Origin: an uncultured Microcaldota archaeon
GTDB lineage: Archaea; Micrarchaeota; Micrarchaeia; CAILAH01
Length of the DNA stretch: 36,117 nt
Reading direction: 5' to 3'
NCBI GenBank assembly: GCA_903832205.1
Contig: CAILAH010000013.1
Coordinates: 1-36,117 of the forward strand
Positions within the stretch are counted from its first letter, which is position 1, and each line of letters opens with the position of its first letter. A model generated the notes under the pieces. The model had not been told where the DNA came from and did no database searches. It was given only the letters and a program-made list of their open reading frames with translations. Shown here piece after piece: positions 1-36,096 of the stretch. The position numbers were made by a program, and so were the translations under genes.

Positions 1-132
1 TGTTAGCGTGATAATGCTTTTAGTAGGGCATCTCATAAATATCTAAAAGAAGGATTGAAATTCTATTCACAATATCTTTAATCTGCTCATAAAGTGGATT
101 TATGGACAGGGTTTATGAGCAAAGCTGCCGCA

Positions 133-150
133 ATCACAAACTATTTAAAC
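133..150 (+). promoter_or_regulatory. Putative archaeal BRE/TATA promoter (ATCACAAACTATTTAAAC)
   Basis: 18-bp string identical to 8823-8840, lying 25-30 bp upstream of an ATG in both places; archaeal TATA-like. Confidence 0.6.
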
Positions 151-174
151 CCGGGCTCTCCAGTAGTTATATCG

Positions 175-1122
175 ATGGCAGTCTTTGGGAAACCCAAGGA
201 GCGCCACGATAGTCGGCGCTTACAACACGAAGACCGTTCTCCTTTTCTCGATGTGGGCCCCGCAGTTGAAAATTCCCTAGAGAAAACCAGAATTGGAAGC
301 TTAATCGACCCCAAGAAGAAGAAACTGATTTTAGAGAGAATCAAGGACGGAAAGGGTCCCCTCTTTATGGAGAAGAAGCCCGCGCCTGAGCGCAGTGCTG
401 ATAAGCCTGCTTCTGAGCAGTCCCAATTTTTTGAAATTATATCCTATGATGGCAACGATTTGGGCAAGTATATCGAGCTCATTATGGAGGAAGTGGATCC
501 ATTCAATAAATGGAAAAAACAAGAAGCCCAACACACCGATTATTTGACCGCGAGAAAACTGGTGGCGGAACGAGGCTGGAGATTACCCTCAAACGTCCTG
601 CACGAAAGCTATGTCCAAAATCATGACGCATGGATGCGGATGAGGCATTTCGGCTACTATTACGCCTGGGCGCGGGAAATAGTCGCCTATCCTGCCAGCA
701 ATGGCATGTTTGAGGCAGGCAGGGACATAATGGACGAAGAGACAAACTGGATAATTCCCGCAAGCTTCATTCCGCAGGAAGCGATCGGCGTAAAGGACGT
801 TGGCCTGTTCATAGACCCGGAAGATGTGAGCAAACAGAACGGCAGGGTAATAGTTATCCCAAGGGTCACGATTGTCCTGACACGCATGATTCAGGGAATC
901 GGCGATCTCGGCGGCGTCAATACGGCAACCGGCATTCCTCATGAAATTACCCATGGTGTTTGTGCATATCAGGACAGTGAAAGGCACTACTTTGGCAGGG
1001 CAGACGGAATGGGCGTCAGGCCGATTGTCCGCGGCGGTTACGATGAAGAGCGCAGATGGACCGTCGAAACCCACGTCAAACCAGACAAACATTACGGGGT
1101 TGGCGGCGTGAAGAGGTGGTGA
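175..1122 (+). CDS. Hypothetical protein, paralog family member 1 (LIDPKKK / LPSNVLH / GLFIDPEDV family)
   Basis: ORF 94-1122; ATG at 175 preferred because it sits ~25 bp after the TATA-like element. Shares conserved blocks with the next three ORFs and the ORF at 35305. Confidence 0.75.
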   Translation: MAVFGKPKERHDSRRLQHEDRSPFLDVGPAVENSLEKTRIGSLIDPKKKKLILERIKDGKGPLFMEKKPAPERSADKPASEQSQFFEIISYDGNDLGKYIELIMEEVDPFNKWKKQEAQHTDYLTARKLVAERGWRLPSNVLHESYVQNHDAWMRMRHFGYYYAWAREIVAYPASNGMFEAGRDIMDEETNWIIPASFIPQEAIGVKDVGLFIDPEDVSKQNGRVIVIPRVTIVLTRMIQGIGDLGGVNTATGIPHEITHGVCAYQDSERHYFGRADGMGVRPIVRGGYDEERRWTVETHVKPDKHYGVGGVKRW

Positions 1123-1124
1123 AC

Positions 1125-1937
1125 ATGAATAGCTTGATGGACAAAACAAAAAAGGCAGAAATCCTTCAAAGAATTAGGGAAGGAAAGGCACCGCTGTTTA
1201 TGGAGAAGAAGCCCAACCCGGAAAGCCCTTCCCATGCAGCACAGGAAACCTCAACCTACGCTAACAACGATCTGGGAAAGGAAATACAAATCCTGCGGGA
1301 ACCTTTATGGAACCCCAAAGCCTATGTAGCGACCCATCACTACGCAAGAGTGCTTTTGGCTGAAAAAAACCTTAGGCTGCCCTCAAACGTGCTGCATGAT
1401 GATTACCTAGTTTATACCAATAAATGGGAAACGCTGCATGGAAAATGCAGCTCTGCGATGTCCTTAAAGGTAACGTGGGCCCGCGAGATACTCGCCTATC
1501 CAGAAATTAACGGTGTGTTTAAAAAAGGTGAGGACATCAGGGATGCGGCAACAGGCTGGACAATCAAGGCAAAGGATGTCCCGAAGGAGGCAATGGGCGT
1601 AAAGGGCGCGGGCCTGTTTATCGACCCCGAAAATATCGATGGGTGGAGAGTCATTCCCAGGACCATAATTGTCCTGACTGGCATGATTCAGGAATTACAT
1701 GGTGTGGGCAGGGTTGACGAGGTGACCCGCATCCCGCTCGCGGTTCCAAAGCAGGTGCTGGATTCGCTGAAGAAAAATGAGAAGCGCATTATTTCCAGGC
1801 GTTCTGAAACTAGTGTCAGGCCCATATGCCGCGGCGCCATTCGTGATTGCCTTGTCAGTTACGTTGATATAAGTAGAGACGTGTACTGTAACATAGAGCC
1901 TACCAACAAAGTGTTTGTGACAGGCGTAAGATTCTAA
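1125..1937 (+). CDS. Hypothetical protein, paralog family member 2
   Basis: ATG at 1125 after SD-like GGTGGTG, 2 nt after the preceding stop; conserved blocks LPSNVLHDDYLV, GAGLFIDPENI, TRIPL, VRPICRGA. Confidence 0.8.
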   Translation: MNSLMDKTKKAEILQRIREGKAPLFMEKKPNPESPSHAAQETSTYANNDLGKEIQILREPLWNPKAYVATHHYARVLLAEKNLRLPSNVLHDDYLVYTNKWETLHGKCSSAMSLKVTWAREILAYPEINGVFKKGEDIRDAATGWTIKAKDVPKEAMGVKGAGLFIDPENIDGWRVIPRTIIVLTGMIQELHGVGRVDEVTRIPLAVPKQVLDSLKKNEKRIISRRSETSVRPICRGAIRDCLVSYVDISRDVYCNIEPTNKVFVTGVRF

Positions 1938-2005
1938 AAATTAGATCTCGTATTTTGCACTTTTGCCCTAACGGCAATGTTTAAAAAACAGTTCATCTCC
2001 CAACA

Positions 2006-2788
2006 ATGATGATGGGAGAGAGGATAGGAACGCTCATTGACCCGAAAAAGAAAGCAGAAGTCCTACAGAGAATTAAAGATAGAAAGGCACCGTTTTGCGC
2101 AGTGAAGCCCGCCCCGGAACCTGTAGGGACAATCCCATCTTCATCCGGATATGTTGGAAACGATTTGGGCAAGGATATCCATCCCGTTGGGCCAGATGGC
2201 AAAATAACAAATACAGATTATTTGGAAGCAAGAAGGCTGGTTGCAGCGCAAGGCGTTCGGCTCCCCTCAAACGTCCTTCACGATGATTATTTAGTCAGTT
2301 CAGACAAATGGAAGGAATTGGACAAGAAGGGCTATTATGCTGCCTGGGCCCGCGAGATACTCGTTTATCCAGGAACAGGCGGAACATTTATCCAAGGCGA
2401 GGACGTAATTGATGGTGGGACAGGCTGGATTCTTCCGGCAAGATATGTTCCTGAGGATATATGCGGTAAAATAGGTATGGGCCTGTTCATAGACCCGGAA
2501 GATGTTTGCAGGGAAAATGGAAGAATAATCGTCCATCCAAAAACAACAATCATTCTCAATCGCCTGCTCCAAGAGAGGGATGCTTTTGGGATGGTTGATG
2601 AAGCAACCCGCATCCCGTTAGAAACAAACGTTCAACTAGATTTTGAAAAACGCTGGTTTTGGAGAACAGCGGGGATGAGTGTTAGGCCCATATGCCGCGG
2701 CGCCTCCAAACCCAACATCAGGATGGGCATCAACTGCGACTGCTTCCCAACCTCCAATTTCGGTGTGGGCGGCGTGGAATACAAATAA
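2006..2788 (+). CDS. Hypothetical protein, paralog family member 3
   Basis: RIGTLIDPKKKAEVLQRIKDRKAPFCAVKPAPE N-terminus plus family blocks; TTTAAAAAA TATA-like sequence upstream. Confidence 0.8.
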   Translation: MMMGERIGTLIDPKKKAEVLQRIKDRKAPFCAVKPAPEPVGTIPSSSGYVGNDLGKDIHPVGPDGKITNTDYLEARRLVAAQGVRLPSNVLHDDYLVSSDKWKELDKKGYYAAWAREILVYPGTGGTFIQGEDVIDGGTGWILPARYVPEDICGKIGMGLFIDPEDVCRENGRIIVHPKTTIILNRLLQERDAFGMVDEATRIPLETNVQLDFEKRWFWRTAGMSVRPICRGASKPNIRMGINCDCFPTSNFGVGGVEYK

Positions 2789-2800
2789 ATTGGTGGAAAA

Positions 2801-3592
2801 ATGTCAGAAAGAATAGGCTCGCTCATTGACCCCAAGAAAAAAGAAATAGTTCTACAAAGGATTAAAGACGGAAAGGCGCCTTTTTGCGCGGAAAAGCCCG
2901 CACCGGAAAACCCAGCAGCAGAAGCCCAATCACAGCAGATTGCATCAACCCCCGTTCCCAATTCCAATCTCGTAGTTCTCGATCAGAAGTTGAATTATAT
3001 TGAGGCGTGGACTACTGCAAGAGCGCGCAATATGAAAATTGCCCCACACGTCCTGCACGATAATTATCTCGTGATGAGCGACCTCTGGAAAACAATACAA
3101 AACGCTTATCCCGTCTGGTGCCGCGAGTGGCTCGTCTATCCGAAGAAGGATGGGGTATTTGAGCCCAACAAGGATGTAGTGGACACCCACGAATTAGATG
3201 GTGAGAAGTGGCGCGTGATCTTTCCAGCAAGCTATATCCCGCAGCAGGCATTAGGCATAAAGGGGGTAGGCCTATTCGTCGACCCATCGGACATAGCGAT
3301 TTATCCAAATCTGAAACAGCTAATCATCCATGCCAACATTACGCCGCCAACCCTTCTCACCGATTTCCTGCAAAAACAGGACTGGGGCCAGGTAGGCACT
3401 AACACACGCATTCCCCTTTCAGTTTCCAGAGATGTTCTTGACGCATTGCCAGATAATCAGAAGCGTTTTCTGCTGAGAATTGACGGTGATGGTGTTCGGC
3501 CTTTGGCGCGCACCTGCATTGGCATGGGCCACCGGAATGTCTACGCTGACCAAGACGTCGGCTCGGTCTTCGGGGTGTGCCTAATACCCTAA
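2801..3592 (+). CDS. Hypothetical protein, paralog family member 4
   Basis: SD GGTGG upstream; RIGSLIDPKKKEIVLQRIKDGKAPFCAEKPAPE N-terminus; most similar to the ORF at 35305. Confidence 0.8.
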   Translation: MSERIGSLIDPKKKEIVLQRIKDGKAPFCAEKPAPENPAAEAQSQQIASTPVPNSNLVVLDQKLNYIEAWTTARARNMKIAPHVLHDNYLVMSDLWKTIQNAYPVWCREWLVYPKKDGVFEPNKDVVDTHELDGEKWRVIFPASYIPQQALGIKGVGLFVDPSDIAIYPNLKQLIIHANITPPTLLTDFLQKQDWGQVGTNTRIPLSVSRDVLDALPDNQKRFLLRIDGDGVRPLARTCIGMGHRNVYADQDVGSVFGVCLIP

Positions 3593-8548: not shown

Positions 8549-8612
8549 AAAAAGAGGGCCGACATTTGCAGCGGCAAATGGTGCCCCTTTTTGCTTTGCA
8601 AAAAGAGGGCCG
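8549..8612. repeat. Double-hairpin element (unit 4) flanked by a 13-bp direct repeat
   Basis: aaaaagagggccg at 8549-8561 and 8600-8612; between them catttgc-agcg-gcaaatg and ctttttgc-ttt-gcaaaaag hairpins. Confidence 0.65.
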
Positions 8613-8723
8613 CGACCGGGAATCGAACCCGGGTCTGGGGATTTCTGCATTTCTGGCATTCTTTTTCGGCGAACCGAAAAAGATGTCCACAGTCCCCCAT
8701 GTTACCATTGCACTATCGCGGCC
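8608..8723 (-). tRNA. tRNA-His (GTG), encoded G-1, anticodon-loop intron 8643-8686
   Basis: Acceptor GCCGCGA/TCGCGGC with extra G-1:C73; T arm CCGGG TTCGATT CCCGG; anticodon stem GGGGA/TCCCC; anticodon at 8688-8690; no encoded CCA. Confidence 0.9.
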
Positions 8724-22367: not shown

Positions 22368-22471
22368 TGGACCGGACGGGATTTGAACCCGCAGCCTCGT
22401 CCATTTTGTAGCTTTTTTTTCAAAAGAAAAAGCTTCGCCAAGAACGCGATCTGCCGTTGATCTACCGGCCC
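22368..22471 (-). tRNA. tRNA-Ala (GGC), anticodon-loop intron 22404-22435
   Basis: Acceptor GGGCCGG/CCGGTCC with G3:U70 and A73 (Ala identity); anticodon GGC at 22437-22439; T arm GCGGG TTCAAAT CCCGT. Confidence 0.9.
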
Positions 22472-27124: not shown

Positions 27125-27273
27125 CGGACCCGAAGGGATTTGAACCCTCGACCTACGCCTTACTCTCTTTCTTTTTCCAAGGTTTTTCTTTTCCAAAGAA
27201 AAAGCTTTTAGGAGAGCGCCGCTCTATCCAAGCTGAGCTTCCCGATGTGCATAAAGCACTTATTTACGGGCCC
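27125..27273 (-). tRNA. tRNA-Arg (CCT) with two introns: 27239-27264 (after position 9) and 27161-27208 (anticodon loop)
   Basis: Acceptor GGGCCCG (27267-27273) pairs CGGGTCC over 7 bp only if the 26-nt insert is removed; T arm GAGGG TTCAAAT CCCTT; anticodon CCT at 27210-27212; insert fits a 3-bp/3-nt/4-bp/3-nt BHB. Confidence 0.82.
27164..27206 (-). repeat. Copy A of an intron-associated dispersed element
   Basis: 28-bp arm 27164-27191 (27/28) and 12-bp arm 27195-27206 (12/12) match the reverse complement of 35216-35243 and 35175-35186. Confidence 0.7.
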
Positions 27274-27355
27274 ACTTAGATATTCGATTTTATACCGCTC
27301 TTCATATATTTTCTAAAGGGATAGCTTTTTATTTTGATGATGGAATATGATATCC

Positions 27356-34002: not shown

Positions 34003-35175
34003 GTGGTATTAATTCCAGTAGAGATTGAATTCTTTGAAGAAGACAAGAAAATCGTTTTGAGCGACCCCTCTAGCGTATCTAACCTGCGCAAGGCATTCTA
34101 CGGCACCAGCGAGGGCGCGGTCATTTTCCTATTTCCCGAAGAGGCGCTCTACGTCCTTGACGTGCGCAACGGCAAGTGCACTGGCGAGGACGGCGCCGAA
34201 ATCTCATTCAACCATCTCGCATCGCATTTCACAAATATCCCGCGCCTCATGACGCGCTACTATGCGTTCAAGGACTGGCGCGACCGCGGGCTCGTCATCC
34301 GCCCCGTTTCAGAGGCTACAGAGAATTATGAGCGCGCAACAACGCACAAGTACCCCTCGCCCGGCTACGAGGTGCCCATATACGACGTTTCCGCGCGCCT
34401 CTATACGGAAGACAATCTCTCAATCGTTGACAACGTTGAGATTGGGGAGAGGATGTATTTCGGCGACTGGTACGGCCAGTACGGCACCTACAAGGCGGAC
34501 AAGCACGGCAGGTTCAGCAAGCTCGACATCTACGAGACGCTCTTTCTCATGCGCCACGGCTCGCTAACGCTTGAGAATACCGATGAGGAAACCCTCCTGC
34601 GCGAGGCAAAGAAGAACAATGAGTTCTTCGAGCCCATCTACAGCGTCTATGAGGACTGGAGGCTGCGCGGGTTCGTGGTGAAGAGCGGGTTCAAGTTCGG
34701 CACGCATTTCAGGATTTATTTCCCGGGCGCCTCTCCGTCCCGCGGCCAGGACGACTGGATACACTCCAAGCACGTGCTTCACGTATTCCCGCGCGACATG
34801 CGGCTGCTCACGTCCGAGCTCTCCCGCGCAATCCGCGTCGCGCACTCCGTGAAGAAAACATTCATACTCGCAATCCCCGGTGAGAAGGCACCCGAGAAAA
34901 TCCCCGCGGATTTCCTGCTCTACCACCGCAAGAAGGAGGGCATCGAAACCCCAGACGACGGCAAGCCGCGCTACCTCATGCTCTCACTTAACGAAGATGA
35001 GAAGATAAGCGGCTCCTACCTCGCCGGCGCAATCGAATCCTCCAAGGCGGTCGGCCTCAACCTCATGCTCGCAATCGTCGACCGTGAAACCAGTGTCACC
35101 TACTACCGCGTCCGCAGGATCGAACTGAAGGACAGCAGGTACGAATACTACGAAATCGACTGGAAGCAGCCCTGA
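34003..35175 (+). CDS. endA: tRNA-splicing endonuclease, epsilon2-like three-unit form
   Basis: VYEDWRLRGFVVKSGFKFGTHFRIYFPG...DDWIHSKHVLHVFPRD...LSRAIRVAHSVKKTFILAI carries catalytic Y/H/K positions; 390 aa with flanking related units. GTG start uncertain (ATT at 34012 behind AGGTGG is also possible). Confidence 0.88.
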   Translation: MVLIPVEIEFFEEDKKIVLSDPSSVSNLRKAFYGTSEGAVIFLFPEEALYVLDVRNGKCTGEDGAEISFNHLASHFTNIPRLMTRYYAFKDWRDRGLVIRPVSEATENYERATTHKYPSPGYEVPIYDVSARLYTEDNLSIVDNVEIGERMYFGDWYGQYGTYKADKHGRFSKLDIYETLFLMRHGSLTLENTDEETLLREAKKNNEFFEPIYSVYEDWRLRGFVVKSGFKFGTHFRIYFPGASPSRGQDDWIHSKHVLHVFPRDMRLLTSELSRAIRVAHSVKKTFILAIPGEKAPEKIPADFLLYHRKKEGIETPDDGKPRYLMLSLNEDEKISGSYLAGAIESSKAVGLNLMLAIVDRETSVTYYRVRRIELKDSRYEYYEIDWKQP

Positions 35176-35243
35176 GCTTTTTCTTTCGGTTTTCGTGCTG
35201 CGCACGAAAGCTCCTAAAGAAAAACCTCGGAAAAAGAAAGAGA
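35175..35243 (+). repeat. Copy B of the intron-associated dispersed element, 3' of endA
   Basis: agctttttcttt (35175-35186) and aaagaaaaacctcggaaaaagaaagaga (35216-35243) match the tRNA-Arg intron; loop holds hairpin tttcgtgc-tgc-gcacgaaa (35191-35209). Confidence 0.7.
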
Positions 35244-35304
35244 CATCTGTTGTTTTCCCCGAATGGAAACGTTTTTATTACGTAATAAGTCCAATCATCT
35301 CGTT

Positions 35305-36096
35305 ATGTCGCCACAAAGCCTAATCGACCCAAAGAAAAAAGAGATAGTTCTACAAAGGATTAAAGACGGGAAGTCACCCTTTTGCGCAGAGAAGCCCGTC
35401 CCTGAAGCTCTTGCAGCTGAAGCCCAATCAGCAGATGGAAAAACAATCTCCGTGCCCAATTTCAATCTCGTAATTCTCAGCCAGAAGATGAGTTATACTC
35501 ATGCATGGAACGAAGCAATTGCATGCAACAAGAGAATCGTATCCCACACTCTTCACGATGATTACCTGACGAATAACAATCTCTGGAGACCATATGAGAA
35601 ATATTATCCTGCCTGGTGCCGCGAGTGGCTCGTCTATCCAAAGAAGGATGGCGTGTTTAAGCCCGGCAAGGACGTTAAGGATACCCACGAATTAAATGGT
35701 GAGCGCTGGCGCGTAATCTTTCCTGCAAGCCATATCCCGCAGCAGGCAATAAATGTAAAGGGAGTGGGCCTATTTATAGATCCAACAGATATAGACGTCA
35801 ATACAAGTAAGAGACGGCTAATCGTTCATACAACCATTCAGTCAGTAATAACTTTGAATGGCTTCATGCAGGAGGATGGCTGGGGCCAGGCAGACACAAA
35901 CACGCGCATTCCTCTTTCAGTTCCCGAGGATGTTTTGAATGCACTTGCAGACAATCAGAAGCGTTACCTGTGGAGAGTTGACGGAAATGGTATCCGGCCT
36001 CTGGCCCGCGGCGGCGGCAGCCTCATCTGTAACGTCTACGCCAACAGCAACGGCAACGGCATCGACTGGGTTTTCGGCGTATTCCTAATGCCCTGA
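35305..36096 (+). CDS. Hypothetical protein, paralog family member 5
   Basis: MSPQSLIDPKKKEIVLQRIKDGKSPFCAEKPVPE; collinear with the protein at 2801 over its full length. Confidence 0.8.
   Translation: MSPQSLIDPKKKEIVLQRIKDGKSPFCAEKPVPEALAAEAQSADGKTISVPNFNLVILSQKMSYTHAWNEAIACNKRIVSHTLHDDYLTNNNLWRPYEKYYPAWCREWLVYPKKDGVFKPGKDVKDTHELNGERWRVIFPASHIPQQAINVKGVGLFIDPTDIDVNTSKRRLIVHTTIQSVITLNGFMQEDGWGQADTNTRIPLSVPEDVLNALADNQKRYLWRVDGNGIRPLARGGGSLICNVYANSNGNGIDWVFGVFLMP

Follow-up and report, generated by a model that had tools for sequence, protein, structure and literature searches.

A putative intron at position 9/10 of a micrarchaeal tRNA-Arg(CCT) gene, with a BHB predicted to compete with the acceptor stem

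The tRNA-Arg(CCT) gene and its two introns

The window analysed here, a stretch of 36,117 nucleotides from an uncultured archaeon of the Micrarchaeia, carries on its reverse strand a tRNA-Arg(CCT) gene with two introns (27125-27273), which was delimited by running ARAGORN on the spliced forms and by inspecting the sequence. Exon 1 (GGGCCCGTA, 27265-27273) comprises positions 1-9 and forms a 7-bp acceptor with CGGGTCC at 27132-27126. It is followed by intron A, a non-canonical intron of 26 nt at position 9/10 (AATAAGTGCTTTATGCACATCGGGAA, 27239-27264), whose CGGG at 27244-27241 pairs with CCCG of the exon. Exon 2 (27209-27238) runs from the D arm to A37 and includes the anticodon CCT, intron B is a canonical 48-nt intron at 37/38 (27161-27208), and exon 3 (27125-27160) extends from A38 to the discriminator G73 at 27125. 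The predicted mature tRNA (GGGCCCGTAGCTCAGCTTGGATAGAGCGGCGCTCTCCTAAGGCGTAGGTCGAGGGTTCAAATCCCTTCGGGTCCG) measures 75 nt and derives from a body of 149 nt. Two TATA-like boxes on the same strand, one about 31-35 nt upstream of G1 (27304-27308) and the other at 27288-27294, are a weak hint that the gene may have a promoter of its own.

A standard cloverleaf with a 7-bp acceptor is obtained by ARAGORN once both introns are taken out. When the 26 nt alone are removed, the program reports a tRNA-Arg(cct) with the 48-nt insert as an anticodon-loop intron, while it reports no tRNA on the unspliced precursor or on the precursor lacking only the 37/38 intron. The Rfam tRNA model at its gathering threshold found two other tRNAs in the window, this gene not being among the matches, and in a search of the whole genome it reached only 13.7 bits on this gene, in the T arm. 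These results bear out the sequence-only reading, which had proposed two introns with exact borders in a tRNA-Arg(CCT): all of its coordinates and letters agree, and a cloverleaf arises only after removal. It had also held that the unspliced 5' side cannot pair with CGGGTCC, that excising 27239-27264 restores the 7-bp acceptor and that a second intron of 48 nt sits in the anticodon loop, all of which stand, the last with ARAGORN's call at 37/38. Its warning that a default tRNA finder could miss the gene proved true for ARAGORN and for the Rfam model on the unspliced form. Since such tRNA genes are missed by common tools, the tRNA sets of DPANN archaea can look more incomplete than they really are.

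Two further intron-containing tRNA genes lie on the reverse strand of the window at 8608-8722 and 22368-22471, which ARAGORN assigns to Tyr(gta) and Ala(ggc). Paralogous open reading frames with a common start resembling LIDPKKK..LQRIKDGKAPF lie at either end of the window (94-3592 and 35263-36096, forward strand).

At the 9/10 junction, which would form a bulge-helix-bulge (BHB), the exon strand GGG-CCCG-TA^A faces the intron strand CGGG-AA^G-CTC. The outer helix GGG/CTC consists of G-C, G-U and G-C, with one G-U pair, the central helix of 4 bp is CCCG/CGGG, and the two bulges of 3 nt each, TA^A and AA^G, would be cut after their second base; inside the intron, an inner helix of 2 bp (AT/AT) is followed by GTGC/GCAC. 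The near-ideal BHB that had been proposed for this junction is thus found in the sequence with its outer, central, bulge and inner elements. With a 4-bp helix, two 3-nt bulges, outer and inner helices, and a cloverleaf that is restored by removal, the junction has the form of a standard BHB and is a putative splice site. By letters alone, a junction at 8/9 or at 9/10 yields the identical mature RNA; we place the intron at 9/10 because of the BHB cutting rule and because the introns of relatives end in CGGGAT^G and CGGGAC^G (L051, L052). The 4-bp central helix arises in 0.4% of composition-shuffled inserts, and the layout recurs in four further Micrarchaeia genomes, which together suggest that this BHB is more than a product of chance.

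Recurrence of the 9/10 site and the splicing machinery

A pattern search of the class found an insert at 9/10 of a tRNA beginning with GGGCCCG in 5 of 301 Micrarchaeia genomes, which belong to five genera and four families, and the reversed control of this search across the 301 class genomes gave zero matches. All five tRNAs are Arg(CCT), the other four genomes being G045, G076, G018 and G292. The contiguous 5' form, without interruption, is present in 140 of 296 class genomes. The four remaining genomes of the family are among them, and in three of these four the tRNA has the same neighbour as the window gene, a thioredoxin-like gene. Because the copies of the nearest relatives are contiguous, a recent gain is the simplest reading, and the 9/10 intron of the window gene was probably acquired recently.

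Among the matches listed outside the class, the same 9/10 layout was found in named genomes of Bathyarchaeota, in a member of the Hodarchaeaceae and in an unplaced euryarchaeote, in tRNAs of several isotypes. Most bacterial matches to the pattern are attributable to chance, and none of the listed ones that include a D arm gave a tRNA. The interiors of the archaeal 9/10 introns are unrelated in sequence, yet they are self-complementary in most of 16 cases, such that the inner helices differ in their letters while pairing is kept, which is the signature of compensatory change. The central CCCG/CGGG helix is set by the search pattern and hence is not counted as evidence of conservation, whereas the self-pairing of the interiors is independent of it. 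The site would be prone to reuse in archaeal tRNAs that start with GGGCCCG-TA-GCTC, since positions 1-3 can pair with positions 11-13 and all that positions 4-7 would require to complete a BHB is a CGGG close to the end of an insert. The repeated use of the site may be explained in this way.

Introns of this kind are not new. The non-canonical BHB introns of Thermoproteales, Thaumarchaeota, Aigarchaeota, ARMAN and Atabeyarchaeia/Freyarchaeia are likewise short, are bordered by BHBs whose 3-nt bulges are cut behind the second base, and often occur alongside a canonical intron; epsilon2 endonucleases are known as well. The accessible text of PMC4090602 lists non-canonical sites at 3/4, 20/21, 22/23, 25/26, 29/30, 30/31, 45/46, 53/54, 56/57, 59/60 'etc.', and position 9/10 is not named in the accessible text of the literature on archaeal tRNA introns, figures and paywalled papers aside. 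In contrast to the listed introns, the BHB of the window gene draws on acceptor positions 1-7. Thus, the 9/10 introns of micrarchaeal tRNA-Arg(CCT) are ordinary in kind, and it is their site, with its consequence for folding, that is unusual.

The window also encodes a candidate enzyme for their removal. The EndA-like gene that had been noticed at 34003 is real and encodes an epsilon2-type tRNA splicing endonuclease of 390 aa (34003-35175, forward strand; Pfam PF01974/PF02778), which matches the ARMAN-2 enzyme (PDB 4fz2/9w2k) over residues 13-390 at 1e-120. The protein is a three-unit chain that can be aligned with ARMAN-2 EndA from one end to the other, and this alignment shows every one of the key ARMAN-2 residues Y160, K161, Y236, H251, R275, K282 and W384 (PMC12397907) to be conserved. 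The two proteins are alike in their three-unit architecture, catalytic triad, ASL Tyr-Lys and bulge-binding Arg and Trp; they differ in that the window enzyme comes from another species and is known here from its sequence. An RtcB is encoded elsewhere in the genome (contig C17, E = 2e-170).

With respect to the demand for this tRNA, 211 of the 374 arginine codons in 19 genes of the window are AGG, so that by these counts AGG is the main arginine codon and tRNA-Arg(CCT) is heavily used. A second intact tRNA-Arg(CCT), which would have spoken against the proposal, was sought and none was found in the assembly (1.11 Mb in 70 contigs), which is 82% complete, such that one could be missing. The other similar D arms in the genome were traced to Arg(TCT), Lys(TTT) and another tRNA. 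Statements about the whole genome are based on searches and chosen stretches.

Predicted folding and order of splicing

The BHB at 9/10 takes up the 5' strand of the acceptor (positions 1-7) and part of the D stem, and according to the folding models it and the acceptor stem would exclude each other. For this reason, the BHB would form only as long as the 3' acceptor strand has yet to be made, or after refolding. When folding is modelled at 37 C in the absence of proteins and modifications, the probability of the central 9/10 helix is about 0.95 in nascent fragments of 39-55 nt and about 0 at full length, when the 3' acceptor strand is present; the nascent value varies with length, and in the full-length precursor the BHB state lies 11.5 kcal/mol above the acceptor state. 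Most of the other 9/10 precursors examined are predicted to undergo the same switch between nascent and full-length RNA, the exceptions being L114 and L153, which have little predicted BHB even as nascent fragments; L051 stands outside the full-length comparison. The fall from about 95% to about 0% argues that 9/10 splicing should take place early, ahead of 5' processing, which is a prediction. As BHB and acceptor stem would not coexist, the 9/10 site lends itself to a clean test of the timing of archaeal tRNA splicing.

Taken together, we are confident that the locus is a functional, apparently single-copy tRNA-Arg(CCT) that is spliced by the window enzyme and RtcB, with the 9/10 intron probably removed early. 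The 149-nt body with its two BHB introns would be transcribed, and 9/10 splicing on the nascent RNA would come first, followed by folding of the cloverleaf and then by 37/38 splicing and end trimming. Gene content, together with what the ARMAN-2 enzyme is known to do, suggests that the epsilon2-type endonuclease of the window would cut both introns, and gene content likewise points to RtcB for the joining of the exons.

An alternative that concerns only the ordering holds that the tRNA is spliced as described but in free order, the acceptor stem being opened by the enzyme or a chaperone once the precursor is complete. A free order would be in keeping with the varied substrates on which the ARMAN-2 enzyme can act (PMC12397907), with the neglect of proteins and temperature in the folding models, and with the weak nascent BHB of the two other 9/10 precursors named above. 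The penalty of 11.5 kcal/mol on the BHB state of the full-length precursor stands against it, and we regard this alternative as possible but rather unlikely.

The remaining alternatives concern the gene itself. That an insertion of 26 nt has turned it into a decaying pseudogene might be suggested by the uninterrupted 5' half of its closest relatives. However, the insert builds an exact BHB and leaves all arms intact after its removal, the gene is the sole Arg(CCT) found for the most used arginine codon, and the same kind of insert occupies the same site in four other Micrarchaeia genomes, so that decay is very improbable. It is harder still to credit that the 26 nt are retained or contain the true 5' end, such that the tRNA would start at about ATCGGGAAGCTC: the CGGG near the intron end does repeat the start of the 3' acceptor strand and lends the region a tRNA-like look, but that 5' side is unable to pair with CGGGTCC, ARAGORN reports no tRNA in such a form, and exon 1 alone supplies the 7-bp acceptor. 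Finally, a permuted gene, or an exon 1 joined in trans from another transcript, is extremely unlikely. Split and permuted tRNAs are known in archaea (PMC3218864), but here the three exons follow one another on a single strand in the space of 149 nt, and the intron ends pair in cis. A functional tRNA-Arg(CCT) with probable early splicing at 9/10 is thus the reading we retain. Beyond what the sequence-only reading had noticed, it includes the mutual exclusion of BHB and acceptor stem and the repeated archaeal use of the site, to which the nature of the 48-nt intron as a dispersed element is to be added.

The 37/38 intron and a dispersed element

The BHB of the 37/38 intron is not perfect: in its central helix C35 faces an A, which leaves three pairs and one mismatch, a relaxed motif. 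Relaxed BHB motifs are known to be spliced by such enzymes, and the C.A mismatch for this reason lowers only the word 'perfect'. The 48-nt intron matches other tRNA introns of this genome and of further genomes in the class. Within it lies a Y-R1-R2 element (27168-27204, reverse strand), which consists, in this order, of a Y tract CTTTTTCTTT, its complement R1 AAAGAAAAA, CCTTGG, and R2 AAAAAGAAA, the mirror image of R1. A second copy, identified by motif scan and sequence matches, starts at the stop codon of the endonuclease gene (35177-35240, forward strand). In a generic motif scan, the window yielded these two loci, whereas 20 Markov controls yielded none. The endonuclease copy was considered as an mRNA intron and rejected, as the protein reaches its end at the same point as the ARMAN-2 enzyme and GAGC has no partner downstream.

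The exact core of the element occurs in 24 copies in 12 genomes in a search of 296 class genomes, with zero copies in the reversed control of the same 296. About 18 of the 24 copies lie in tRNA introns (37/38, T loop, one D arm) or in 23S rRNA introns, and the others just downstream of tRNAs, of a C/D-box-like RNA or of protein genes; these contexts were counted partly by eye, since automatic removal of segments with ARAGORN worked at some loci and many loci hold several introns. In all cases among the 24 in which a host can be assigned, the element has the sense of the host RNA, and a looser scan found a few antisense or upstream copies (L197, L012, L006). A core match in a viral contig was set aside as a chance match within a protein gene. 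The mirror agreement of R1 and R2 extends beyond the core, with a mean run of 2.46 as compared to 1.21 in shuffled sequences, and 0 of 20000 permutations reach it, a statistic to be read in the light of element copies that are not all independent.

The order of a Y tract, a complementary R1 and a mirror R2 is the layout of a class II intrastrand triplex motif. The element shares this order and the dispersal of its copies with the bacterial motifs BoxC, PIT and TMECO (PMC4666352), whereas it is A/T-rich and they are G/C-rich. Furthermore, it is located mostly in introns and trailers of tRNAs and rRNAs and has the same sense as the host RNA, in contrast to TMECO, which is intergenic and has no strand bias (PMC4666352). 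Purine-motif triplexes form in DNA and not in RNA (PMC4666352).

Copies across the Micrarchaeia (labelled L178-L221) include one within an insert of a 23S rRNA gene (L192/L215, G003 C49:1930-1969). With CAGC/GCTG, CA^A and TT^T, this insert is likely an rRNA BHB intron whose splicing would give the usual ...AGCAGCCATCC... sequence. At another locus (L202, G065 C8:132), the element directly follows an apparent C/D-box sRNA. A single tRNA intron elsewhere (L191/L207, G003 C32:55-129) holds two element units head to tail, as from tandem or nested insertion.

A link between introns was also found within the genome of the window. The T-loop introns of both Lys(TTT) and Gly(CCC) share a 38-nt core with the anticodon-loop intron of Gly(TCC) (L224-L227; G000 C17:31299-31336, C68:14726-14763, C20:64-101 and C38:25427-25464). 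Its presence at two tRNA positions suggests that introns have moved between tRNAs and between positions, and shared cores of this kind provide a concrete system for how archaeal tRNA introns move. Transposition of tRNA introns has been reported in Thermoproteales (Fujishima et al. 2010, as cited in the accessible text of PMC4090602), where near-identical introns likewise sit in different tRNAs and positions of one genome; as far as that text goes, the Micrarchaeota differ in that their shared cores include Y-R-R motifs, which are also found downstream of tRNA and protein genes. It may be, though we would not count on it, that micrarchaeal tRNA and rRNA introns carry a mobile Y-R-R element that spreads in sense from one RNA gene to another, is spliced by the epsilon2 enzyme and thereby creates new introns, with the 9/10 intron belonging to the same regime of easy gain and co-transcriptional splicing. 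The element would then be tolerated in genes because the endonuclease, with its presumed broad specificity, splices it out.

Near-identical 3' halves of tRNA-Gly(CCC) with few differences occur at two contig ends of this genome (C20:1-200 and C68:14663-14847), and they represent strain variants or a duplicated gene.
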